From Streptomyces sp. PCS3-D2 (GTDB taxonomy: Bacteria > Actinomycetota > Actinomycetes > Streptomycetales > Streptomycetaceae), in NCBI RefSeq assembly GCF_000612545.2, contig NZ_CP097800.1:3821001-3885000 (forward strand): a DNA stretch of 64,000 nucleotides, written 5' to 3'. The first letter of the stretch is position 1, and each line of letters starts with the position of its first letter. Under the pieces are notes generated by a model that made no database searches, had not been told where the DNA came from, and saw only the letters and a list, made by a program, of their open reading frames with translations. The translations under genes were made by a program, and so were the position numbers. Shown here piece after piece: positions 1-13,347 of this stretch.

Positions 1-587
1 CTCTCGTCGGAGAAGGCGGCGGGGTAGTACATCACCAGGTCGTCGTCGAGGACGCACAGCGCGGTGTCCAGGTGGTAGAAGCGGGGGTCGGTCAGGGCCA
101 GGCCGACCACGGGCAGGCCGAAGAACGCGCGGAGCTCCTCGAACGCGCCGGGGTCGCTGCGGAATCCCGCGCCGGCCAGGATCCGCCGGCCGGCCGGGGC
201 GAAGTCGCCCTCGCCCTCGTTGACGCGGTCCGGGACCTTGATGTCGGTGTAGCCGTGTTCCTCGAACCAGGCCCGGTAGGCGTCGGCCTCGGCCGCCCGT
301 TCCTGGTGGCGGAACTTCGCGATCAGGACCTTCCCGTCGACCACGGTGGCGCCGTTGGCCGAGAACACCATGTCCGGCAGGCCGGGCACCGGGTCGATGT
401 ACGAGACCTCGTGGCCCAGGCCGAGGAACAGGTCCCGGACCCGCTCCCACTGGGCCAGAGCCAGAGCCGCGTCCATCGGCTTGTCCGGGTTCATCCACGG
501 GTTGATCGCGTAGCTCACCTCGAAGTGGGTGGGCCGGCACATCAGGTAGTGGCGCCTGGTGGCGGTGCGCCGGACGGTCTCAGCCAT
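1..587 (-). CDS. dimethylargininase-like amidinohydrolase, 3' end cut by window edge
   Basis: This is the N-terminal ~195 residues of a protein of the dimethylarginine dimethylaminohydrolase (DDAH) / arginine-deiminase fold, which hydrolyses guanidino groups through a Cys-His pair. Visible family features are MCRPTHFEVSYAINPWMNP near the N-terminus, LPDMVFSANGA, NEGEGDF and FYHLDTAL, which holds the catalytic His. The catalytic Cys would lie beyond position 1. The ATG at 587 overlaps the stop of the upstream ATP-grasp gene by 8 bp, so translation is probably coupled. It is the last visible gene of the leftward operon. The intact gene at 6884-7750 is a clear paralogue (same motifs, by eye over half identical). 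Substrate is unknown; an arginine-derived intermediate is an inference. Confidence 0.82.
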   Translation of the reverse strand, partial: MAETVRRTATRRHYLMCRPTHFEVSYAINPWMNPDKPMDAALALAQWERVRDLFLGLGHEVSYIDPVPGLPDMVFSANGATVVDGKVLIAKFRHQERAAEADAYRAWFEEHGYTDIKVPDRVNEGEGDFAPAGRRILAGAGFRSDPGAFEELRAFFGLPVVGLALTDPRFYHLDTALCVLDDDLVMYYPAAFSDE

Positions 588-1833
588 GCTCGGGCCTCAT
601 CTCGGTACGGATGCGGCCGGCCGCGACGTGTGCGGCGGTCAGCGCCTCGGTCAAGGAGGTGCCGGTGGCCCCGATGAAGCCGAGGATGTTGTTGCCCGCG
701 GGCGGCCGCTTGATGACGCTGCCCGGGGTGGCGGTGATCTTGAGGAAGAACAGCGCCGGGTCCTCGGCCACCTCGCTCGGCACGTCGATCGACTCGACCG
801 TGCCGGCGCCGCTGATCAGGCACATCGCGGCGGTGTGCACCTCGGTCGGCGCGTAGTGGGAGACGTCGGGCCGGATGCCGCGGGCCACGTCCGACACGCA
901 TTGGATGGGGTCGTGGCCGGCGCTGATGCGGGCCATGTGGTCGAGCCCGCCGCCTCCGGGGCGGATCGCGATCTCCAGGATGAAGGGCCTGCCCTGGTGG
1001 AAGCGCACCTCGGCGTGGAGCACCGACCGGCGCAGTCCCTGCGCGTGGGCCGCGTCCCGGACCACCTCGTGGACGGCGGCGACCTGCTCCGGGGTCAGCG
1101 AACTCGGCGCGTGGTGGACGTCGTCGTCGAAGGTTCCGCTCTCGACGGTGATCCGGTCCACGATGGAGCCGAGGTACACCTCCTCGTCCCAGGCCAGCGC
1201 CTCGATGAGGTGCTCGTGCCCGTCGAGGTAGCCCTCGACGATGATCCCGTGCGGACCGAGGTCCAGGCCGTCGGCCTCCATCAGCGCCCAGGTCATGGTC
1301 TCGATGCCCGAGGTGGCGTCCGCGAAGCGGGCGCGCATCTCCTCGGGGTCGTCGACCTTGAAGACGAAGTTGCTGGCGGCGCCGAGGGTCGGCTTGAGGA
1401 TCAGCGGGTAGCCGAGCTCCTCGCCGGCGGCCAGGGCCGCCTCGACGTCGGGGGCGTAGCGGAACCCGGGGTGCGCCGCGCTGCCGCGCTCGTGCGCCTG
1501 GCGCATGAGCAGCTTGTTGCGGCTGGTGCGGGCGGCCTCGAAGCCGATGCTCGGCAGTCCGAGCGCCTCGGCGACGACCGCCACCGTGACGACCCCGGAC
1601 TCGGAGAAGGTCAGGACCCCCTCGAAGTCCTCCTCCGCGTGCCAGGCCTTGGCGGCCGTGACGATGTCCTCGATGTGCTTGGATCCGGCGATCCGGTAGC
1701 GGTCCGCGTCCCAGAAGTCCTCGGTTCCGATGCCGTTCAGTACGAAGACCCGGGCGCCGCGTTCCTCGATCTGCTGGTAGCGGGAGACGTAGTAGGTGGC
1801 GTTCTGGCTGGCCTCGATGGCGAGCAGCTTCAT
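580..1833 (-). CDS. ATP-grasp domain ligase
   Basis: A 417-residue ATP-grasp protein, the family that makes amide or acyl bonds through an acyl-phosphate. The N-terminal ~100 residues look like the pre-ATP-grasp domain (MKLLAIEASQNATYYVSR). Next come ATP-binding lysine signatures (YPLILKPTLGAAS, about residues 142-154) and, near residue 290, the metal-binding segment FILEIAIRPGGGGLDHM. This layout is typical of L-amino-acid ligases and carboxylate-amine ligases of secondary metabolism. It starts 14 bp after the MFS gene stops and overlaps the DDAH-like gene downstream, so it belongs to the operon beginning at 6547. The likely role is joining an amino acid or carrier to the N-N product, but the substrate cannot be read from sequence. 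Confidence 0.85.
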   Translation of the reverse strand: MKLLAIEASQNATYYVSRYQQIEERGARVFVLNGIGTEDFWDADRYRIAGSKHIEDIVTAAKAWHAEEDFEGVLTFSESGVVTVAVVAEALGLPSIGFEAARTSRNKLLMRQAHERGSAAHPGFRYAPDVEAALAAGEELGYPLILKPTLGAASNFVFKVDDPEEMRARFADATSGIETMTWALMEADGLDLGPHGIIVEGYLDGHEHLIEALAWDEEVYLGSIVDRITVESGTFDDDVHHAPSSLTPEQVAAVHEVVRDAAHAQGLRRSVLHAEVRFHQGRPFILEIAIRPGGGGLDHMARISAGHDPIQCVSDVARGIRPDVSHYAPTEVHTAAMCLISGAGTVESIDVPSEVAEDPALFFLKITATPGSVIKRPPAGNNILGFIGATGTSLTEALTAAHVAAGRIRTEMRPEHG

Positions 1834-1847
1834 GTCCGGTCCTCCTC

Positions 1848-3179
1848 TCAGACCCTGGCCGGGACGGACTCGCGGGCCTCGGCCCCGGCCGTGACGGGCT
1901 CGGCGGCCTCGGCGGCCGCGACGGGCTCGGACTCTTCGGCGGCCTCGGCGGCCTTGGCGGCGGCCTCGGCGGCGGCGACCTCACGGTCGTGCTTGCGCAG
2001 CGACAGGATGGTGAGCGAGGCGATGACGACGACCAGGACGGAGAGGGCGTAGAAGCCGTTCTTGACGTTGGTGGAGTCGACGAGCAGGGAGATCAGGACG
2101 ACGGCGGCGGTGCCGGCCGCGAGGCCGAAGGCGTTGGTGGCGCCGAAGACGAAGCCCGTCTTCTCCTCGGGGGCCGCGCTCATGAGGGCGGTGCGGGCGG
2201 AGATGCGCGCCACGCAGAAGGCGATGGCGGCGAAGGGGATGACGGCCATCATCGCGTAGAGGTGCAGGGACTCCAGCGACAGCAGCACCGCGAAGGCGAG
2301 GTAGCCGATCAGGGCCGTCTTCAGCACGGTGGCCCTGGAGCTGATCTTCTTGAAGGCCCAGGCCGCGAAGAGCGCACCGATGCCGAACAGGGCGTCGACG
2401 ATGCCGAGGTAGCCGGCGTTGGACTTGAAGCCGTCGATGACCAGGACCAGCATGATGCTGTTGCCGACGATGATGACGATGTTGCCGATGATGTAGAGCA
2501 GCGCCAGACGGGCCAGCGGCGGGCGGGTGGCGGAGGCGGCGACCGTCGCGACGGCGGCCTTGGCGGCGGCCTCGGTGGCACGGGTGGCCTCGCCCGCCGG
2601 ACGGCGGCCGATGAAGAACAGCAGGGCGGCCGAGACCAGGAAGGTGATCGCGTTGAAGTAGAAGAGCGACGTGGTGCCGACCCAGACGATCACCCAGCCG
2701 CCGAGGGCCGCGGAAGCGAGCGTGCCGGCCTGGATGGCGATCTCGGAGTTGCCGTTGAACTGGGCGAGCCGGGACTCCGGGATGCGCTCCTTGATCAGCG
2801 CGTTGCTGGCCGGGAAGAAGAGGGCCGCGGAGATCGACAGGATGAAGCTGGCGACGTAGCTGACCGTCGAGGGGTTCCCGCCGAGGGCCAGCCAGACGGG
2901 CAGGCCGATCGCGGCGGCCGCGCTGGCCAGGTCCGAGATCATCGCCAGGGTGCGGCGGTCGAAGCGGTCGGCGAGCTTGCCGAAGAACAGGGACAGCGCC
3001 ACCTGCGGAATGGTGACGGCGATCATCAGCCAGCTCACCGCGAGCATGGTGTTGGCTTCGGTGAACACCAGGTAGGAAGCGGCGGTGAGCTGGATGCCGT
3101 TGCCCAGGTTGGTGATGAACGTCGCGGGGATGAGCAGTCGTTCTGCCCGATTGGGTCGGGGCGGGGCGATCGTGGACAC
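1848..3179 (-). CDS. MFS transporter
   Basis: A 443-residue major facilitator superfamily protein of about 12 hydrophobic segments. The GTG start at 3179 is preferred because a GAGGAG ribosome site lies just upstream and the protein then begins MSTIAPPRPNRAERLLIPAT. The loop between helices 2 and 3 has the MFS motif (FFGKLADRFDRRTLAM). The C-terminal ~40 residues are an unusual Ala/Glu-rich, probably cytoplasmic tail (repeats of AAEAAAKAAEAAEE). It sits inside the biosynthetic operon, 17 bp after the MetRS-like gene, so export of the product or self-protection is the likely role. Direction and substrate are inferred from context only. Confidence 0.85.
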   Translation of the reverse strand: MSTIAPPRPNRAERLLIPATFITNLGNGIQLTAASYLVFTEANTMLAVSWLMIAVTIPQVALSLFFGKLADRFDRRTLAMISDLASAAAAIGLPVWLALGGNPSTVSYVASFILSISAALFFPASNALIKERIPESRLAQFNGNSEIAIQAGTLASAALGGWVIVWVGTTSLFYFNAITFLVSAALLFFIGRRPAGEATRATEAAAKAAVATVAASATRPPLARLALLYIIGNIVIIVGNSIMLVLVIDGFKSNAGYLGIVDALFGIGALFAAWAFKKISSRATVLKTALIGYLAFAVLLSLESLHLYAMMAVIPFAAIAFCVARISARTALMSAAPEEKTGFVFGATNAFGLAAGTAAVVLISLLVDSTNVKNGFYALSVLVVVIASLTILSLRKHDREVAAAEAAAKAAEAAEESEPVAAAEAAEPVTAGAEARESVPARV

Positions 3180-3196
3180 GGGTGCTCCTCGGGAGG

Positions 3197-4816
3197 TCAG
3201 GCTCGGACGTCGACCGGCACGGGCAGGGGCTCGAAGGCCCCCACGACGGTGGACAGGAGGGGGAGTCGCAGGGGCGCGACGGTGGTGGCCGCGGTCGTGC
3301 CGGCCGGGAGGGTCAGATCGGCGCCGGCCTGCTCGGCACGGGCCGCCAGGTCGACGAGCAGCGGGGCGGCGCACGCGATGAGGGTCCGGACGGCCAGCAC
3401 CAGGTCGCCCAGGTCGGTGGGTACGTCCACCGCGACGCGGTCGGCCTGCTTCAGCAGCCGGTCCAGGTGGACGACCAGGAGGTCGGCGGCCCGGTGGAGG
3501 CTGAAGCTCTCCAGCTCGTAGTGGGAACGGAAGCGCTCGACGACGATGGCGGCGTGCTCGGCGCCGGTCTCGGACAGCGGCAGCAGCGCGTCGGCCGGTG
3601 TTCCGGCCAGCAATTCCTCCAGGCGGCCCGCGAGCCGGTTCCACGGCTCGACCAGGCGGTCGGCCGACAGCTGTTCCAGCGCCTCGCGGCTGAAGTTCGT
3701 GCGGGAGTGCTCCGGAGCGGTCAGCGCCAGGTAGAAGCGGACCAGGTCCCGCGGTACCTCGGCCACCAGGTCGGCGGCCCACACCACGTGGCCCTTGCTC
3801 GTGGAGAACTTCTGGTTCTCCAGCTCGTAGAACTCGTTGGAGATGATCGCGTGCGGCTCGACGTACCGGTCGCCGTGCGCCATCAGCAGCGCGAGGTGCG
3901 TCATCCCCCAGAAGTAGACGTTGTCGAATCCGAGGAAGTAGACGAGCTCGATGCCGTGCTCGGCGAGCCAGTGCTCGTCGTAGCGGTCGGCGTGCTCACC
4001 GAGCTGCTCGGCGGCCCACCAGGTGCAGTACATCGAGGCGGCCATGCCCTCGGCCCAGGCGTTGAGGACCTGGTCCGGGGTCTCGGTGAAGGGGGCCGGG
4101 ATGCCCCAGCCGGTCGGGTAGGTGATCGGGAAGTCCGGCAGGGGCCGGTCCAGGGCCTCCCGGATGAGCTGCGCGGTGTGCGGGCGCAGCATGTCGCGGT
4201 GGCGGACGTAGTAGTCGGCGAGCCGGTCGCGGTACTCCTCCATCGGCAGCACCAGGATCTGCGCCTCGCGGTGCGTGACGACGGCGTCCGGGTCGACGGT
4301 GGAGCGCGGGCGCAGCAGCTCGTCGAAGTTGTTGGGATGGCCGCAGGACTCGCAGAGTCCGCCGCGGCTCTCCACCAGGCAGACCGGGCAGTCGCCGGCG
4401 ACGAGGCCCTCCATGAGGTACTCGCCCGTCGCCTCGACGTAGGGCAGCCGCACCGTCTTCAGCCGGAACGCACCGTCGGTGTGGAGGTCGGTGACGAAGT
4501 CGACGACGGTCTGTCGGTAGCCCTTGTCGAAGGGCGCGAAGCCGTCCACGGAGATGCCGGCCGCCTCCAGGGTGGCGCGGATCTGCGTCGCCGAGCGCAG
4601 CGCCAGCTCCTCCGGGGTCAGACCGGCGCGCGCGGCGCTGGAGACCACGTAGGTCTGGCTGTCGTCGGTGCCGCTGGTGAAGACCACCGGACGGCCGGAC
4701 GCGCGCAGGTAGCGCGCGTACACATCGCCGGCGATGTACGGGCCCGCCAGGTGCCCGGTGTGCAGGTCCCCGTTGGGGGTCGGTGGGGGCGCGATGATGA
4801 CCGTACGGGGTGTCAT
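3197..4816 (-). CDS. methionyl-tRNA synthetase-like protein (probable hydrazine synthetase subunit)
   Basis: A 539-residue class I aminoacyl-tRNA synthetase homologue closest in layout to MetRS. The Rossmann signature is HTGH at residues 19-22 (HIGH box). A MetRS-type zinc knuckle CPVC/CESC lies at 143-158, and a KMSKS-equivalent KFSTSK at 336-341. The C-terminal half is short and helical. The ATG overlaps the cupin stop by 4 bp (ATGA), so the two proteins are made together. In known pathways (Spb40 of s56-p1, PyrN of pyrazofurin, Tri28 of triacsin) a cupin and a MetRS-like domain are fused and join an amino acid to N6-hydroxylysine, forming N-N. Here they are separate polypeptides. A housekeeping MetRS is unlikely given the operon. 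The amino acid activated is unknown. Confidence 0.85.
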   Translation of the reverse strand: MTPRTVIIAPPPTPNGDLHTGHLAGPYIAGDVYARYLRASGRPVVFTSGTDDSQTYVVSSAARAGLTPEELALRSATQIRATLEAAGISVDGFAPFDKGYRQTVVDFVTDLHTDGAFRLKTVRLPYVEATGEYLMEGLVAGDCPVCLVESRGGLCESCGHPNNFDELLRPRSTVDPDAVVTHREAQILVLPMEEYRDRLADYYVRHRDMLRPHTAQLIREALDRPLPDFPITYPTGWGIPAPFTETPDQVLNAWAEGMAASMYCTWWAAEQLGEHADRYDEHWLAEHGIELVYFLGFDNVYFWGMTHLALLMAHGDRYVEPHAIISNEFYELENQKFSTSKGHVVWAADLVAEVPRDLVRFYLALTAPEHSRTNFSREALEQLSADRLVEPWNRLAGRLEELLAGTPADALLPLSETGAEHAAIVVERFRSHYELESFSLHRAADLLVVHLDRLLKQADRVAVDVPTDLGDLVLAVRTLIACAAPLLVDLAARAEQAGADLTLPAGTTAATTVAPLRLPLLSTVVGAFEPLPVPVDVRA

Positions 4817-5181
4817 GCCGGGGCTCCTTCGTGGCGTGCTGCGAACCGCTGTGTCATGTCGAGGTCCCACCAGACCGAATACATCTCGAAGTCCGCGTCC
4901 GACTCGTTGATCACCCGGTGTGCGGTGCCGGGGGTGAAGTGGACGATGTCCCCCTTCACGAAGGGCTTGCGGACGCCCTCCGACTCCAGGACGGCGGAGC
5001 CGGCGACGGCGATGAAGATCTCGTACTCGTGGTGGGCGTGGGCCGTCGAGGCGGTTCCGGGGCGGATCACGCACCAGGAGCCTTCGAAGGGGGCGTTGAG
5101 TTCGGGCCAGGGCAGCAGGCGCTGGGCGTCCAGACCGTTCTCGTGCGTCAGTGCTTCGCGGTCGAGTTGCTTGGTGAGCAT
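4813..5181 (-). CDS. small cupin protein (probable N-N bond forming partner)
   Basis: A 122-residue single-domain cupin. Motif 1 is seen as HAHHEYE (residues 48-54) and motif 2 as GDIVHFTPGTAHRV with His88, giving the usual metal-binding His/His/Glu/His set. Zinc-binding cupins of this kind rearrange an O-acylated N-hydroxy amino acid into a hydrazine in the known pathways. It is translationally coupled to the MetRS-like gene by an ATGA overlap and lies 52 bp downstream of the N-hydroxylase gene. The free-standing form, in place of a fused cupin-MetRS protein, is notable. A general sugar- or oxygenase-type cupin is possible by fold alone. The neighbours make the hydrazine role much more likely. 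Confidence 0.85.
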   Translation of the reverse strand: MLTKQLDREALTHENGLDAQRLLPWPELNAPFEGSWCVIRPGTASTAHAHHEYEIFIAVAGSAVLESEGVRKPFVKGDIVHFTPGTAHRVINESDADFEMYSVWWDLDMTQRFAARHEGAPA

Positions 5182-5233
5182 GTGGTTCGGTCTCTCCTCG
5201 TCATGCGGTGTGGCTCGTGGGGGCGTGCGGTGC

Positions 5234-6547
5234 TCAGACCGCGCCGGCGAGGGCGAGCTCCCGCGCCTCGGCCGTGAACTCCGCCGACCGGGAACGGCGG
5301 TGGGCGAGGATGTCCTGGGTGATCTCGGCGGAGCGTCCCGCGAGCACGCTGAGCAGCGAGTCGGCGATGCCGTGGGTGGCCTCGTTGACGCCCTGCAGGT
5401 AGACGGCGGCGGTCGCCGGGCGGCCGAGGTCGAGCCGGTAGTTGCGGCTGACGTTGATCTCGTCGAGCCCGATCGCCGCGGCGAGGGCCTTGACCGCCCA
5501 CGGCATCGCGCGGACGAAGCCGGTGCCCAGCAGCACCAGGTCGGTGCGCATCTCCCGCTCGGTGCCCGACTTGCGGTCGACGAGGGTCAGGACGACCTCC
5601 TCGCCGTCCATCCGCGCGGCGGCCACGTCGGTCATCGGCTGCATGCCCAGGCGCTCCTCGCCGCTGCGGCGGTCCTGGTAGAACTGCCGGTAGAGGCCGT
5701 CGAGGGTGGCCGGGGCCAGGCCGCCGTAGTTGGAGCGGTACATCTCGGCGAGCAGTTGCTGACGGGCCTCGGGCGAGGACTCGTAGAACTCGTCGATGAA
5801 GGACGAGTAGTACAGCTCGTTGGTGAACTTGCTGCTCTCGTACCCGTTCAGGCCGATGGAGCGCATGATCATCGTGGGCTTGCACTCGGGCAGGTCCCGC
5901 AGGGCGGCGCCGAACAGCTCGGCCGCGCTCTGCGCACCGCCGACGACGGCGACCCGGTGCGGCAGGTCCTTGCGCACCTCGCCGATCCGCTGGCTGTACT
6001 GCGTGCTGTGGATGACCCGGTCGGCCGGCAGGCCGGCGAACACCTCGGGGACGTGGGCGTCGCGGCCCGCGCCGATGACCAGGTAGCGGCAGCCGATGGT
6101 GTCGCCGTCGGCCAGCGTCACCACCCAGCCGGAAACCTCTCCGTCCGTTCCGGTGACCGGCTCGACGGACGTGCATTCACGGCCGTATTCGACCTTCACC
6201 GTGTCGAGTTCGTCCGCCACCCATTGCAGGTACTCGGATATCTCACTGCGATAGGGCACGAAGCTGGCGAGATTGACGAAGGCGTCCAGGCGCTCCTGCG
6301 CGTGGAGGAAGTTGACGAAGGAGAAACGACTGGTCGGATTGCGCAGGGTGACCAGGTCCTTGAGGAAGGAGACCTGGCTGAGGGCATCGGGCAGGAGCAT
6401 GCCGCGCTGCCACACGATGTCGCGCTCGCGCTCGATGAGCAGGGTGTCGCCGGCCAGCTCGGGAGCGAGCTCCTCGACGGCGATCGCCAGCGCCAGGTTC
6501 GCCGGACCTGCACCGACTGCGAGCAGTTCGACGTTGCGATGCGCCAT
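5234..6547 (-). CDS. lysine/ornithine N-monooxygenase
   Basis: A 437-residue flavin-dependent N-hydroxylating monooxygenase of the IucD/PvdA/SidA family, which converts the side-chain amine of lysine or ornithine to a hydroxylamine with NADPH and O2. Visible features are the FAD-binding GAGPANLALA near the N-terminus, LPDALSQVSFLKDLVTLRNP, the NADPH-binding VVGGAQSAAELF and the late GTGF. The ATG is preceded by a GGAGG about 8 bases upstream. It is the first gene of the leftward operon, followed by the cupin. No siderophore synthetase (IucA/IucC or NRPS) is present, which argues against a simple hydroxamate siderophore and for feeding N-hydroxylysine to the cupin/MetRS pair. Lysine versus ornithine specificity is not decidable here. 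Confidence 0.9.
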   Translation of the reverse strand: MAHRNVELLAVGAGPANLALAIAVEELAPELAGDTLLIERERDIVWQRGMLLPDALSQVSFLKDLVTLRNPTSRFSFVNFLHAQERLDAFVNLASFVPYRSEISEYLQWVADELDTVKVEYGRECTSVEPVTGTDGEVSGWVVTLADGDTIGCRYLVIGAGRDAHVPEVFAGLPADRVIHSTQYSQRIGEVRKDLPHRVAVVGGAQSAAELFGAALRDLPECKPTMIMRSIGLNGYESSKFTNELYYSSFIDEFYESSPEARQQLLAEMYRSNYGGLAPATLDGLYRQFYQDRRSGEERLGMQPMTDVAAARMDGEEVVLTLVDRKSGTEREMRTDLVLLGTGFVRAMPWAVKALAAAIGLDEINVSRNYRLDLGRPATAAVYLQGVNEATHGIADSLLSVLAGRSAEITQDILAHRRSRSAEFTAEARELALAGAV

Positions 6548-6883
6548 GGAAGTACCTCCAGATGGAACAGGTGGACAGGTTGGTACGGTCAGGCAGGAGG
6601 CCTCGGGCCGTTGTGCGGCTCCGTTCCCCGCCTTGCGAAACCGGTTGATGACCTCATTCCACGGCGCCGTGCGATTGCCCGGAACACATCACGGGCACGG
6701 ACAATCAACTCGGGTGCGGACCTGGTGAGGGGCGTTGATTGGCCGGTGTCCTCCGAGCCTTCCGGTCAATGCGGAGGCGTCTTTCCATGGGACGGAGCGA
6801 TCAGCCGCTTCAGACGTATCCGGCCGGCCGACCATCCCTCGGCCGCCGGGCTTCCATCACCACCCCATGAGAAGGAGCCCTCC
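6548..6883. promoter_or_regulatory. divergent promoter region of the N-N bond locus
   Basis: This 336-bp non-coding gap separates the leftward N-monooxygenase operon from the rightward DDAH-like gene, so it must hold both promoters. Ribosome sites are visible at each end: GGAGG on the minus strand near 6553-6557 and GAAGGAG at 6871-6877. I could not assign convincing -35/-10 boxes or a clear operator palindrome, and no regulator gene is present in the visible locus. Confidence 0.6.
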
Positions 6884-7750
6884 GTGCCGCTCACCGAGGC
6901 CATCACCCCCGCCGGCGCCCCGCACCTTTCCGGGTCCACCGCCCGTGTCGCCACGCGCCGCCGCCTGCTGATGTGCCGGCCCCGGCACTACGACGTCACG
7001 TACTCGATCAACCCGTGGATGAACCCGCAGCACGCCACGGACAACGCGCTGGCCGTGAGCCAGTGGGAGGGCCTGCGCGACCTGTACCTCGAACTCGGCC
7101 ACATGGTGGAGGAGATAGAGCCGCTGGAGGGCATGCCCGACATGGTGTTCGCGGCCAACGGCGCCACCGTCGTGGACGGCAAGGTCTACGGCGCCCGCTT
7201 CCGCCACGCGGAGCGCACGGCGGAGGGTCCGGCGTACCTGCGGTGGCTGGAGGGCCGCGGCTACACGGACACGCTGTGGCCGGAGTACGTCAACGAGGGC
7301 GAGGGCGACATCCTCACCGTCGGCCGGCGCCTGCTCGCCGGTACGGGCTTCCGCACCGACCCGCGCTCGCACGCGGAGGCCCAGGAGTTCTTCGGGCTGC
7401 CCGTCACCTCGCTGACCCTGGTCAACCCGGACTACTACCACCTCGACACGGCGCTGTCCGTGCTGTCGGACGACGAGGTGATGTACTACCCGGCGGCCTT
7501 CTCCCAGGGCAGCCAGGCCGTGCTGCGCGCGATGTTCCCCGACGCGATCCTGGCCTCCGCCGAGGACGCGGCCGTCTTCGGCCTCAACGCCTTCTCCGAC
7601 GGCCGCAACGTGCTCCTTCCCGCCGCGGCCACCGGCCTGCACGCGAAGCTGAGGGCGCGGGGCTTCGAGCCGATCGGCGTCGAGCTGTCCGAACTCCTCA
7701 AGGCCGGCGGCAGCGTGAAGTGCTGCACCCTGGAACTGCGCGACCGCTGA
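6884..7750 (+). CDS. dimethylargininase-like amidinohydrolase
   Basis: A complete 288-residue DDAH-family protein. Motifs are LLMCRPRHYDVTYSINPWMNP (29-49), MPDMVFAANGA (84-94), NEGEGDI (137-143), the catalytic His186 in YYHLDTAL and a C-terminal Cys pair (280-281) in GGSVKCCTLEL, one of which is the nucleophile. The GTG start at 6884 follows GAAGGAG by 6 bases. DDAH hydrolyses methylated arginine to citrulline and an amine; relatives act as arginine deiminases or dihydrolases. The gene diverges from the N-monooxygenase operon and is followed by a strong terminator. Streptomyces often carry a single house-keeping DDAH, so this copy may be that enzyme, but a second paralogue in the operon suggests both could serve the pathway. 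Confidence 0.87.
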   Translation: MPLTEAITPAGAPHLSGSTARVATRRRLLMCRPRHYDVTYSINPWMNPQHATDNALAVSQWEGLRDLYLELGHMVEEIEPLEGMPDMVFAANGATVVDGKVYGARFRHAERTAEGPAYLRWLEGRGYTDTLWPEYVNEGEGDILTVGRRLLAGTGFRTDPRSHAEAQEFFGLPVTSLTLVNPDYYHLDTALSVLSDDEVMYYPAAFSQGSQAVLRAMFPDAILASAEDAAVFGLNAFSDGRNVLLPAAATGLHAKLRARGFEPIGVELSELLKAGGSVKCCTLELRDR

Positions 7751-7769
7751 TCCCCGCACGGCACGGCGA

Positions 7770-7810
7770 AGACCCCTTCCGGCCCCCCTCCCACGGGCCG
7801 GAAGGGGTCT
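7770..7810. terminator. intrinsic terminator after the DDAH-like gene
   Basis: Perfect 16-bp inverted repeat (arms 7770-7785 and 7795-7810, AGACCCCTTCCGGCCC and its complement) with a 9-base loop, 19 bp after the stop codon. It lies between converging genes, so it can act in both directions. Confidence 0.85.
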
Positions 7811-7837
7811 CTCGTCGTACGGGGCCCCGCGCGCCGG

Positions 7838-8020
7838 TCAGAGGTTGGCGCGGATCAGCGCCAGCAGGCCGGGAAAGCGCTCCTCCAGGTCCTCCCGGCG
7901 CAGGGTGGCGGCCCGGCTGTTGCCGCGGTCCACCTGCCGCACCAGTCCGGCCTCGCGCAGGATCCGGAAGTGGCGGGTGATCGTCTCGACCGTCTTCGAC
8001 GGCCCCGCCCGGGCCACCGA
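7838..8020 (-). pseudogene. ArsR-type regulator remnant (3' end only)
   Basis: Only the C-terminal ~50 residues of a winged-helix regulator remain: ETITRHFRILREAGLVRQVD is the recognition helix/wing of ArsR/SmtB-type HTH proteins, followed by a basic/acidic tail ending FPGLLALIRANL. The 5' part is lost. Upstream of about 8000 the frame runs into sequence unlike the family. The other side of the break carries an efflux-pump C-terminus in the opposite orientation, so a single deletion seems to have removed the 5' halves of two divergent genes. Confidence 0.65.
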
Positions 8021-8021
8021 G

Positions 8022-8183
8022 ATGTCCGGCGCCGTGGACACCGAGGCGTTCGGCCACTTCCTGGCCCAGTCCTACGACTCCGCCTTCCACACCGTGCTCT
8101 GGGGCCTCGCCGTGGTCTGCGTCGCCCTCTGCGCCGTGGTCGCCGCCCTGCTGCGCGGCGGATCCGCCGAGCGCACGGCCTGA
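8022..8183 (+). pseudogene. MFS drug-efflux transporter remnant (C-terminal end)
   Basis: About 53 residues containing AFGHFLAQSYDSAFHTVLW and a final hydrophobic helix ending VVAALLRGG, which resembles the last periplasmic loop and last transmembrane helix of DHA2 (EmrB/QacA-like) exporters. No other part of a transporter precedes it. It abuts the ArsR remnant, as expected if a regulator and the divergent pump it controlled were joined by deletion. Confidence 0.55.
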
Positions 8184-8330
8184 CGGCCGGCCCGGCGGGC
8201 CCGTGAGCCCGCGGCCGAAACGACCCGGCCAAACCGTCGCCGCCCCCGTCGACTTGGGGACGGGCGCCCTGCACACACCCCCAGGCACATAGATGTACAT
8301 GCCACACAGATAGTCGCCCCGAGGGCGCGC

Positions 8331-8371
8331 AAAATGCCCCCCGACCTGTGTTTCCGCAGGTCGGGGGGCAT
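8331..8371 (-). terminator. terminator of tRNA-Ala
   Basis: Perfect 15-bp stem (8334-8348 with 8357-8371) and an 8-base loop, followed on the minus strand by TTTT. It begins 6 bp beyond the 3' end of the tRNA-Ala gene. Confidence 0.9.
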
Positions 8372-8377
8372 GTGGTG

Positions 8378-8450
8378 TGGAGCCTAGGAGATTCGAACTC
8401 CTGACATCTGCCTTGCAAAGGCAGCGCTCTACCAACTGAGCTAAGGCCCC
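8378..8450 (-). tRNA. tRNA-Ala (anticodon TGC)
   Basis: The minus strand folds into a standard cloverleaf of 73 nt without encoded CCA. The acceptor stem GGGGCCT/AGGCTCC includes the G3:U70 wobble that identifies alanine tRNAs. The anticodon loop TTTGCAA gives TGC, and the T arm has GTTCGAAT. A strong terminator follows. In Streptomyces this gene usually lies near tRNA-Ile; here the integrated element has pushed the two about 15 kb apart. Confidence 0.96.
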
Positions 8451-8612
8451 GTGGAACTGGACGCACCTGTCCCGTGCGAGGGATGCGGTCGTTCCGCAGA
8501 ACAGAGTACCGGGTTTACCCCCTCATCTCGCAAAATGATAGGGACTCCCGCCTCACGACCACTCTCCGTAAGATGCTCGCGAGGTTCGCACCAGCGAAGG
8601 GGAGTAGTAAGA

Positions 8613-9161
8613 GTGGACGCAGTACAGCAAGAGGCCACGGCCAGAGCCAGAGAGCTCCAGCGCAGCTGGTACGGAGAGCCGCTGGGAGCGCTCTTCCGCA
8701 GGCTCATAGACGACCTCGGCCTGAACCAGGCCCGCCTGGCTGCCGTACTCGGCCTGTCGGCGCCCATGCTCTCCCAGCTGATGAGCGGCCAGCGCGCCAA
8801 GATCGGCAACCCCGCGGTGGTCCAGCGCGTCCAGGCCCTCCAGGATCTGGCCGGACAGGTGGCCGACGGCAGCGTCAGCGCCGCCGAGGCGGCCGACCGC
8901 ATGGACGAGATCAAGAAGACCCAGGGGGGATCCGTCCTCAGCAGCAGCGGCCAGACCACCACCGGGTCCGGCGCGCCCACCGTCAAGCGCGTGGTCCGCG
9001 AGATCCAGTCGCTGCTGCGCTCGGTCTCCGCGGCCGGCGACATCATCGACGCGGCCAACAGCCTCGCCCCCAGCCACCCGGAACTGGCAGAGTTCCTCCG
9101 GGTGTACGGAGCCGGCCGCACCGCGGACGCGGTCGCGCACTACGAGGCACACCAGAACTGA
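8613..9161 (+). CDS. helix-turn-helix DNA-binding protein
   Basis: A 182-residue protein starting with GTG at 8613, about 8 bases after an AAGGGGAG ribosome site. Residues ~20-60 form a Cro/C1-type helix-turn-helix (LNQARLAAVLGLSAPMLSQL). The rest is helical with a Ser/Thr/Gly-rich linker (SSSGQTTTGSG) and a C-terminal helical pair. It is probably a transcription regulator conserved among streptomycetes; target and ligand are unknown. It precedes a protein kinase gene by 61 bp in the same direction, so the two may be co-transcribed. Confidence 0.75.
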   Translation: MDAVQQEATARARELQRSWYGEPLGALFRRLIDDLGLNQARLAAVLGLSAPMLSQLMSGQRAKIGNPAVVQRVQALQDLAGQVADGSVSAAEAADRMDEIKKTQGGSVLSSSGQTTTGSGAPTVKRVVREIQSLLRSVSAAGDIIDAANSLAPSHPELAEFLRVYGAGRTADAVAHYEAHQN

Positions 9162-12471: not shown

Positions 12472-13347
12472 CTAAGCGTTGTCCCGTAAGTGCTGGTCAC
12501 GGGTGAGATGATCTTGCTGTGTCTGGTGTGATCACGGCGTCGGAGCCGTCCTGGATAGCCCCGTTCGCCGGGCTGAGCCCGCGGCAGTTCAGCAAGCTGA
12601 TCACCGCGCTGCGGCGCGAGGGAGCCGACCCGGTCCGCAAGGGCCGACCCTGGAGCCTGCCATTGGAGGACCGGGTCCTGCTGGTCGCCGCGTACTGGCG
12701 CACCAACCTCACCCTGCGCCAACTCGCCCCGCTGTTCGGGGTGTCGAAGTCCGCGGCCGACCGGATCGTCGACCACCTCGGCCCGGCGCTCGCGTTCCAG
12801 CCCCGCAAGCGGTTCCGCAAGGACACCGTGCTGATCGTCGACGGCACCCTGGTCCCCACCCGGGACCACACCATCGCCGAGCAGTCGAAGAACTACCGGT
12901 ACTCCACCAACCACCAGGTCGTCATCGACGCCGACACCCGGCTCGTCGTCGCGGTCGGCCGGCCACTGCCCGGCAACCGCAACGACTGCAAGGCATGGGA
13001 GCTGTCCGGAGCGAAAGACGCCGTCGGCAAGGCCACGGTGATCGCGGACGGCGGCTACCGAGGCACCGGCCTGGTCATCCCCCACCGCCGCGAACCCGGC
13101 CAGAGCGAACTCCCGGGCTGGAAAGAGGAACACAACCGCTCGCACCGCAAGGTCCGAGCCCGCGTCGAGGACGCCTTCGCCCGCATGAAGACCTGGAAGA
13201 TCCTCCGCGACTGCCGCCTGAAAGGCGACGGAGTCCATCACGCCATGCTCGGCATCGCTCGCCTCCACAACCTCACGCTCGCTGGTTGACCAGGAAACGA
13301 CGCTGGTCAACCAGCATGCCGTAGATCATTTACGGGACAACGCTTAG
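12472..13347. mobile_element. IS5-family insertion sequence
   Basis: An 876-bp element with perfect 18-bp terminal inverted repeats (12472-12489, CTAAGCGTTGTCCCGTAA, and its complement at 13330-13347) and one transposase gene. If the true ends are AGCGTTG and CAACGCT, a TA dinucleotide is duplicated at both edges, which fits the IS427-like group. It starts only 26 bp from the left attachment repeat, inside the AICE. Confidence 0.9.
12519..13289 (+). CDS. IS5-family DDE transposase
   Basis: A 256-residue single-frame transposase. An N-terminal HTH (LTLRQLAPLFGVSKSAADRIVDHL) is followed by a DDE_Tnp_4-type catalytic core: first Asp in LIVDGTLV, second in VIADGGYRG, and a Glu in the C-terminal HRKVRARVEDAFARMKTWKI. 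All three acidic residues are present and the frame is uninterrupted, so the IS may still be active. It begins with GTG 30 bp inside the left inverted repeat. Confidence 0.92.
   Translation: MSGVITASEPSWIAPFAGLSPRQFSKLITALRREGADPVRKGRPWSLPLEDRVLLVAAYWRTNLTLRQLAPLFGVSKSAADRIVDHLGPALAFQPRKRFRKDTVLIVDGTLVPTRDHTIAEQSKNYRYSTNHQVVIDADTRLVVAVGRPLPGNRNDCKAWELSGAKDAVGKATVIADGGYRGTGLVIPHRREPGQSELPGWKEEHNRSHRKVRARVEDAFARMKTWKILRDCRLKGDGVHHAMLGIARLHNLTLAG

Follow-up and report, generated by a model that had tools for sequence, protein, structure and literature searches.

A candidate hydrazine-forming gene island near gyrA in Streptomyces sp. PCS3-D2

At the left end of a 64,000-nucleotide stretch of the Streptomyces sp. 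PCS3-D2 genome (7.63 Mb; contig NZ_CP097800.1, G000:C1:3821001-3885000; hereafter the window, position 1 being its first base), three minus-strand genes stand side by side. They encode a flavin N-hydroxylase of the lysine N6/ornithine N5 type (N-monooxygenase, NMO; 5234-6547, 437 aa, PF13434), a standalone zinc-type cupin (4813-5181, 122 aa, PF07883) and a predicted amino-acid-activating protein resembling methionyl-tRNA synthetase (MetRS-like; 3197-4816, 539 aa, PF09334). Open reading frames (ORFs) and Pfam matches confirm this order, which had been proposed in an initial annotation as a run of consecutive overlapping genes; the cupin and MetRS-like genes do overlap, by 4 nt, whereas a gap of about 50 nt separates NMO and cupin. 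Also as proposed there, an MFS exporter (1848-3179, 443 aa, GTG start, frame and ends checked; PF07690, MFS_1 E 7e-34 on the piece 1989-3185, scanned without the last 46 residues) and then an ATP-grasp ligase of the L-amino acid ligase type (AG1; 580-1833, 417 aa; PF13535, ATP-grasp_4 E 2e-18, with PF18603, LAL_C2; PDB match 3vot E 2.5e-26) follow on the same strand. These genes belong to an island of about 21 kb near gyrA, and we consider it very probable that the NMO, cupin and MetRS-like proteins together form a nitrogen-nitrogen (N-N) bond.

The NMO matches Lys_Orn_oxgnase in Pfam (E 3e-85), and its closest PDB entries are PvdA (3s5w) followed by MbtG (9nns) and KtzI (4tlx). Ornithine enzymes (PvdA, KtzI) and a lysine enzyme (MbtG) thus both stand among its closest solved structures, and we regard lysine and ornithine as equally possible substrates. 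A siderophore or hydroxamate pathway, in which the NMO would supply the N-hydroxylated form of ornithine or lysine without any N-N bond formation, appears very unlikely: neither a siderophore synthetase nor a nonribosomal peptide synthetase was found among the Pfam-scanned island proteins, the remaining NMO matches in this genome differ from it (three near full length at 30-35% identity and one broken copy at 46% over a short stretch), and to our knowledge no hydroxamate pathway employs a cupin/MetRS pair. The protein family is nonetheless one that siderophore NMOs share. The neighbourhoods of such MetRS (MtRS) paralogues were studied in 2010, reportedly by Iyer and colleagues. In that study a siderophore role was raised for some members (PMC2922099; here and below, papers are cited by PubMed Central number).

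The cupin (Cupin_2 E 3e-14; PDB matches 4rd7, E 6e-46, and RHS1, 5uqp, E 1e-9) carries the metal ligands H48, H50, E54 and H88, which are invariant in all 22 sequences of an alignment of the window cupin and 21 selected relatives. They fit the ligand pattern H/D, H, E, H of cupin/MetRS-like hydrazine synthetases, with its invariant Glu, and correspond to PyrN H50, H52, E56 and H90 and to the RHS1 residues tested in a 2021 study (PMC8664883), in which the metal ligands of PyrN and RHS1 were important, homologues made first an ester and then the N-N bond, and standalone cupin and MetRS-like proteins performed a job equivalent to that of the fused form. The MetRS-like protein (tRNA-synt_1g E 1e-68) retains the class I activation motifs HTGH and KFSTS; HxGH-type and KFST(S/T) motifs are kept in 14/14 aligned family members, in an alignment that also includes canonical MetRS, and we infer that the KFSTS lysine is the equivalent of PyrN K458. 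A MetRS judged canonical by eye from its sequence is encoded elsewhere in the genome (G000:C1:1261294-1262754), at 26% identity to the MetRS-like protein. Compared with it, the methionine pocket is changed at four positions: Pro replaces a Leu, Thr and Ser replace two Tyr, and Trp replaces a His. We take the replaced residues, in numbering and role, to be L13, Y15, Y260 and H301 of Escherichia coli MetRS, in that order. The position aligned to canonical His301 is Trp in 8/9 split members and His in 4/5 fused members; at a guess, the Trp would make the MetRS-like pocket smaller. The changed pocket also speaks against an ordinary amide product of the Met-Lys type, made by the MetRS-like protein as a peptide ligase. 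This was the 2010 proposal, the original interpretation of neighbourhoods with ATP-grasp, periplasmic-binding-type and dimethylargininase genes (PMC2922099), but it has been superseded by the direct tests of homologues that yielded ester and then N-N bond (PMC8664883), and we give it very little credence. Pfam assignments, cupin ligands and MetRS motifs instead bear out the reading of the trio as a cupin/MetRS-type hydrazine synthetase with its N-hydroxylase.

The separation of cupin and MetRS-like protein into two genes, which the initial annotation had singled out as special, is not new: paralogues lacking a fused cupin were already noted in 2010 to have a standalone cupin beside them (PMC2922099), and such pairs were among those tested in 2021 (PMC8664883). 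In a MetRS tree of 34 selected rows, in which the fused rows all come from plasmid matches and canonical MetRS forms a very long branch, the window protein falls on the split side, with 28 split members on one side of a branch and 5 fused members apart (support 100/100).

Gene order is kept in 6 distinct sister loci (L033-L036, L053 and L066, the near-copies L054 and L055 being left out of the count) at about 90% protein identity. Within the genus, MetRS-like matches at E <= 1e-60 occur in 47/296 genomes, with 90-100% identity in five, this genome included. A named scan returned 43 loci, including ones from Streptomyces avidinii, S. purpureus, Hamadaea, Saccharothrix, Actinosynnema, Streptosporangium and Serratia, two of which (L094 and L095) are short-stretch matches only; plasmids add loci from Pantoea, Deinococcus and Klebsiella. 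Many actinobacteria have relatives of the cluster, and reduced versions are found in Serratia, Pantoea and Deinococcus. We tabulated 58 loci, excluding the near-copies L054, L055 and L067 and the two short matches, and scored gene presence by tblastn score thresholds in 45 long ones (at least 19 kb, MetRS identity at least 46%), picked by their MetRS match and uncorrected for kinship. NMO is present in 43 of these, cupin in 43 and both in 41, which, together with the order kept in the six sister loci, indicates that the grouping of the trio is not due to chance.

The bounds first given to the locus, 580-7750, enclose about half of the cluster. On contiguous genome sequence to the left (L009, G000:C1:3803001-3822000; window base 1 is L009:18001) the cluster continues for 11-12 kb. 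The spacing from a PPIase gene to the gene at window 8451 is 23.2 kb here versus 1.9-2.6 kb in five of six relatives fetched (in the sixth, L121, the right-hand gene is not shown), from which we take the cluster to be an island of about 21 kb. By eye, gyrA, gyrB, recF, dnaN and dnaA could be picked out among the window ORFs, and the surroundings are therefore taken as the oriC region. Leftwards beyond base 1, the operon on the minus strand runs through a DDAH/arginine-dihydrolase-like hydrolase (DDAH1; L009:17763-18587, 274 aa, NF045659), a 120-aa protein with a predicted avidin fold (S120; L009:17431-17793), an SBP_bac_5 solute-binding protein (SBP; L009:15638-17434, 598 aa, PF00496 E 3e-31), a YbaK-type protein (L009:15135-15638, 167 aa, PF04073 E 1.8e-19), a second ATP-grasp ligase (AG2; L009:13867-15129, 420 aa, PF13535 with LAL_C2), a DAO-family FAD oxidase (L009:12687-13832, 381 aa, PF01266 E 8e-28) and a YjbR protein (L009:11615 to about 12745, start uncertain, PF04237). 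Regulators of the HTH/NB-ARC type (L009:10076-11542, plus strand) and the AfsR/SARP type (L009:6725-10027, minus strand) follow. A scan of window 1-9000 for promoters and terminators found none and is uninformative at this G+C content. By eye, an ORF close to the left boundary of the island (L009 about 5470-6397, plus strand) is ATP-grasp-like and looks truncated; it has no Pfam match, as might be seen in a decayed or silent island. That the island as a whole is in this state is highly improbable given that the core reading frames are open, the motifs are intact and about 90% identity is conserved in the same order in six sister loci. To the right of the island lies a transposase-like ORF, recognised by eye (window 12519-13289, plus strand).

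Across the 45 long loci, AG1 was scored in 34, AG2 in 35, S120 in 35, DDAH in 30, SBP in 24, a close DAO in 18 and MFS in 13. Where AG1 is present (34 loci), S120 accompanies it in 32, AG2 in 32, DDAH in 29 and SBP in 24; in the 11 loci lacking AG1 the respective numbers are 3, 3, 1 and 0, and S120, AG2, DDAH, SBP and AG1 therefore travel as a set.

Enzymes that form N-N bonds are few; azaserine, triacsins and pyrazofurin are among the compounds that this family makes. The 2010 study of MtRS-paralogue neighbourhoods had already noted genes for an NMO, an ATP-grasp enzyme, a periplasmic-binding-type protein and a dimethylargininase along with the standalone cupin, as found here (PMC2922099). 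Other standalone synthetases, namely the RHS1 pair of Rhodococcus jostii and the pairs of Cellulomonas flavigena and others (PMC8664883; table in PMC11705231), likewise consist of a separate cupin with corresponding ligands and a MetRS-like partner near an N-hydroxylase. The window cupin is only distantly like RHS1, and the island adds DDAH, the editing protein, the avidin-fold protein and an SBP with no visible secretion signal; unlike RHS1-type systems, no saccharopine dehydrogenase was found among the Pfam-scanned island proteins. The s56-p1, triacsin, azaserine and N-nitroglycine systems (Spb38-40, Tri26-28, AzsLMN and NngKLM) have a logic of N-hydroxylase, FAD oxidase and cupin/MetRS that the island would share (PMC11705231, PMC10445470, PMC13274452), with fused synthetases where the window has two genes. 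Lysine and glycine are the substrates in the s56-p1/triacsin/azaserine type. The azaserine/triacsin type also has carrier-protein, AMP-ligase and N-acetyltransferase genes, none of which was found among the Pfam-scanned island proteins; the island has two ATP-grasp ligases instead, and the one ATP-grasp gene of the azs cluster is possibly uninvolved according to its authors. These neighbours indicate a different assembly logic, with ATP-grasp enzymes in place of carrier proteins, and it is because of them, not of the split, that the product may be new, as had been suggested. No description of the exact cluster and no product name for the cluster type were found among the open-licence PubMed Central papers surveyed, and some member of the window clade may already have a characterised activity. 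Two candidates were set aside: negamycin, whose N-N bond comes from other machinery, the heme enzyme NegJ (PMC12154649), and the Pantoea PNP-1 cluster, whose paper contains no tRNA or monooxygenase terms.

The leftward sequence also supplied a possible release step in the DAO-family oxidase, which is sarcosine-oxidase-like and bears only a distant likeness to the FAD oxidases beside fused synthetases. An FAD oxidase is annotated beside four of the five fused synthetases fetched, and others are annotated near further synthetases; two fetched stretches, including that of the fifth fused synthetase, have none. This distribution is consistent with release by oxidation, of the kind that Spb39, Tri27 and NngL provide.

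The single DDAH-like gene of the initial annotation is in fact one of two. The first, DDAH1, appears in the window as a frame at 3-587 on the minus strand that is cut by the left edge (window 1-587 holds its first 195 residues). DDAH2 lies at about 6890-7750 on the plus strand, divergent from the operon and without a fixed start, and occupies the same position in the six sister loci at 93-94% identity. Against NF045659 they score 427 (DDAH1) and 442 (DDAH2) bits, with a cut-off of 300. The closest structure to DDAH1 is the ArgZ-type Sll1336 (6jv0, E 7e-48), and Alr4995 is also among the nearest solved; we take these two to be the arginine dihydrolases ArgZ and AgrE. The catalytic Cys, His and acid of ArgZ and its two Asn, whose roles we presume, are all present in 11/11 aligned DDAH-like sequences. 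The DDAH-like proteins exceed the cut-off for the Mycobacterium tuberculosis dimethylargininase and fall below that for arginine dihydrolase, and sequence cannot separate deiminase, dimethylargininase and dihydrolase; an ArgZ/AgrE-type activity would yield ornithine, while the NCBIfam cut-off reached is that of a dimethylargininase. Three more DDAH-like genes lie outside the island (G000:C1:1016678, 1151038 and 5421865), and among 18 relatives of the same genus DDAH-like matches at E 1e-50 number one in 13, two in two, three in one and none in two.

Three components of the island were unexpected, namely the YbaK-type protein, S120 and the SBP. The YbaK-type gene sits between those of SBP and AG2, and a homologue occurs elsewhere in the genome. 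Its Lys43 and GxxxP, which we take to be the catalytic lysine and the motif of the YbaK/ProX family, are present in 12/12 aligned rows, and the protein is likely an aminoacyl-tRNA proofreading enzyme; against NCBIfam YbaK_EbsC it scores 51.5 bits, below the 153-bit cut-off. S120, predicted to fold into an eight-stranded avidin barrel, aligns structurally with avidins at about 10% identity and has no visible signal peptide. Nor is a secretion signal visible in the SBP, where only about 5-30 hydrophilic residues precede the domain in the window protein and in 23 of 24 listed homologues, as judged by eye rather than with a signal predictor (L044 being unreadable in that frame); a structure prediction for its L053 orthologue had low confidence (pLDDT 55). 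In Pantoea and Deinococcus an unrelated periplasmic-binding-type fold, again with no visible signal, follows the AG1-type ligase. The editing of canavanyl-tRNA in bacteria provides a precedent for editing as self-protection. The PheRS B3/4 domain is an editing domain and is in the abbreviation list of PMC2922099; otherwise, neither an editing domain nor an avidin-fold protein was seen in the available text of that study, in which 'signal peptide' is nowhere mentioned. For S120 the nearest parallel, and a precedent for self-resistance by an avidin fold, is streptavidin, which neutralises acidomycin (PMC13336041): there an avidin-fold protein is encoded beside antibiotic genes, S120 differing in its low identity and its lack of a visible signal.

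From the genes present, their order and conservation, the motifs that they encode and a single fold prediction, we consider it probable, though less firmly than N-N bond formation itself, that the island encodes a pathway in which ATP-grasp enzymes assemble a small peptide or amino-acid antimetabolite containing a hydrazine. The product would be exported, and the producer would protect itself by tRNA editing and sequestration. The NMO would hydroxylate lysine or ornithine on its side-chain nitrogen, the MetRS-like protein would adenylate another amino acid, probably a small one, and esterify it to the hydroxylamine, and the standalone zinc cupin would rearrange the ester to the N-N bond. These three steps follow from the known family; the remainder we infer. 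The DAO-type FAD oxidase may cut one C-N bond and so free a hydrazino acid, which AG1 and AG2 would couple to other amino acids, with ornithine or citrulline probably supplied by the DDAH-like hydrolases, and the MFS protein would export the product. The idea that DDAH feeds ornithine to the NMO is weakened by the distribution of DDAH, present in 29/34 loci with AG1 and 1/11 without it, although NMO is found in 43/45.

As for self-protection, the YbaK-type deacylase might strip mischarged product or intermediate, a hydrazino amino acid, from tRNA, and the avidin-fold protein and the repurposed signal-less SBP might bind the product or hydrazine intermediates in the cytosol; we offer this trans-editing scheme tentatively, as a possibility that is open to doubt. 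The same three proteins could instead be catalytic or carrier parts of a pathway in which the trio makes the N-N bond, perhaps by hydrolysing acyl esters that have stalled or by ferrying a reactive hydrazine from one enzyme to another. The frequencies of S120 (32/34) and SBP (24/34) among AG1 loci resemble those of a pathway step more than of optional resistance, and the YbaK, S120 and SBP genes overlap or nearly abut adjacent reading frames; all three proteins, however, have binding or proofreading folds, several ligase-keeping loci lack SBP and in Pantoea and Deinococcus the place after AG1 is taken by another fold, so that we think catalytic or carrier roles rather unlikely. Were self-protection by editing and sequestration correct, aminoacyl-tRNA editing would be a resistance device for amino-acid antibiotics and, given the unrelated signal-less binding fold beside the ligase in Pantoea and Deinococcus, cytosolic substrate-binding proteins would be a new kind of component that recurs in hydrazine biosynthesis.

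Several relatives vary in gene content. A sub-branch of six loci (L058, L060, L062, L063, L065 and L070, from Microbispora, Actinokineospora, Amycolatopsis and others) keeps NMO, cupin and MetRS-like genes without AG1, DDAH or S120 and possibly represents a different product class; a family of proteins of about 685 aa occurs in 6/6 of these loci, and a family with a TauD-like member in L083 in 5/6. In two genomes a further cluster (L045 and L047, 19.9 kb each) contains NMO in two copies, and next to its MetRS-like gene no cupin match exceeds the threshold. Ten loci (L037-L039, L041, L046, L059, L068, L069, L084 and L101) encode an additional PEP-mutase-family protein and/or a berberine-bridge-type FAD oxidase, by Pfam match of one representative each. 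Plasmids of Pantoea (L100 and L104, predicted to be conjugative) and Klebsiella (L102, predicted to be non-mobilizable, its record stopping after the MetRS-like gene) carry reduced forms of the cluster; in all three a divergent NIPSNAP-family gene lies upstream.

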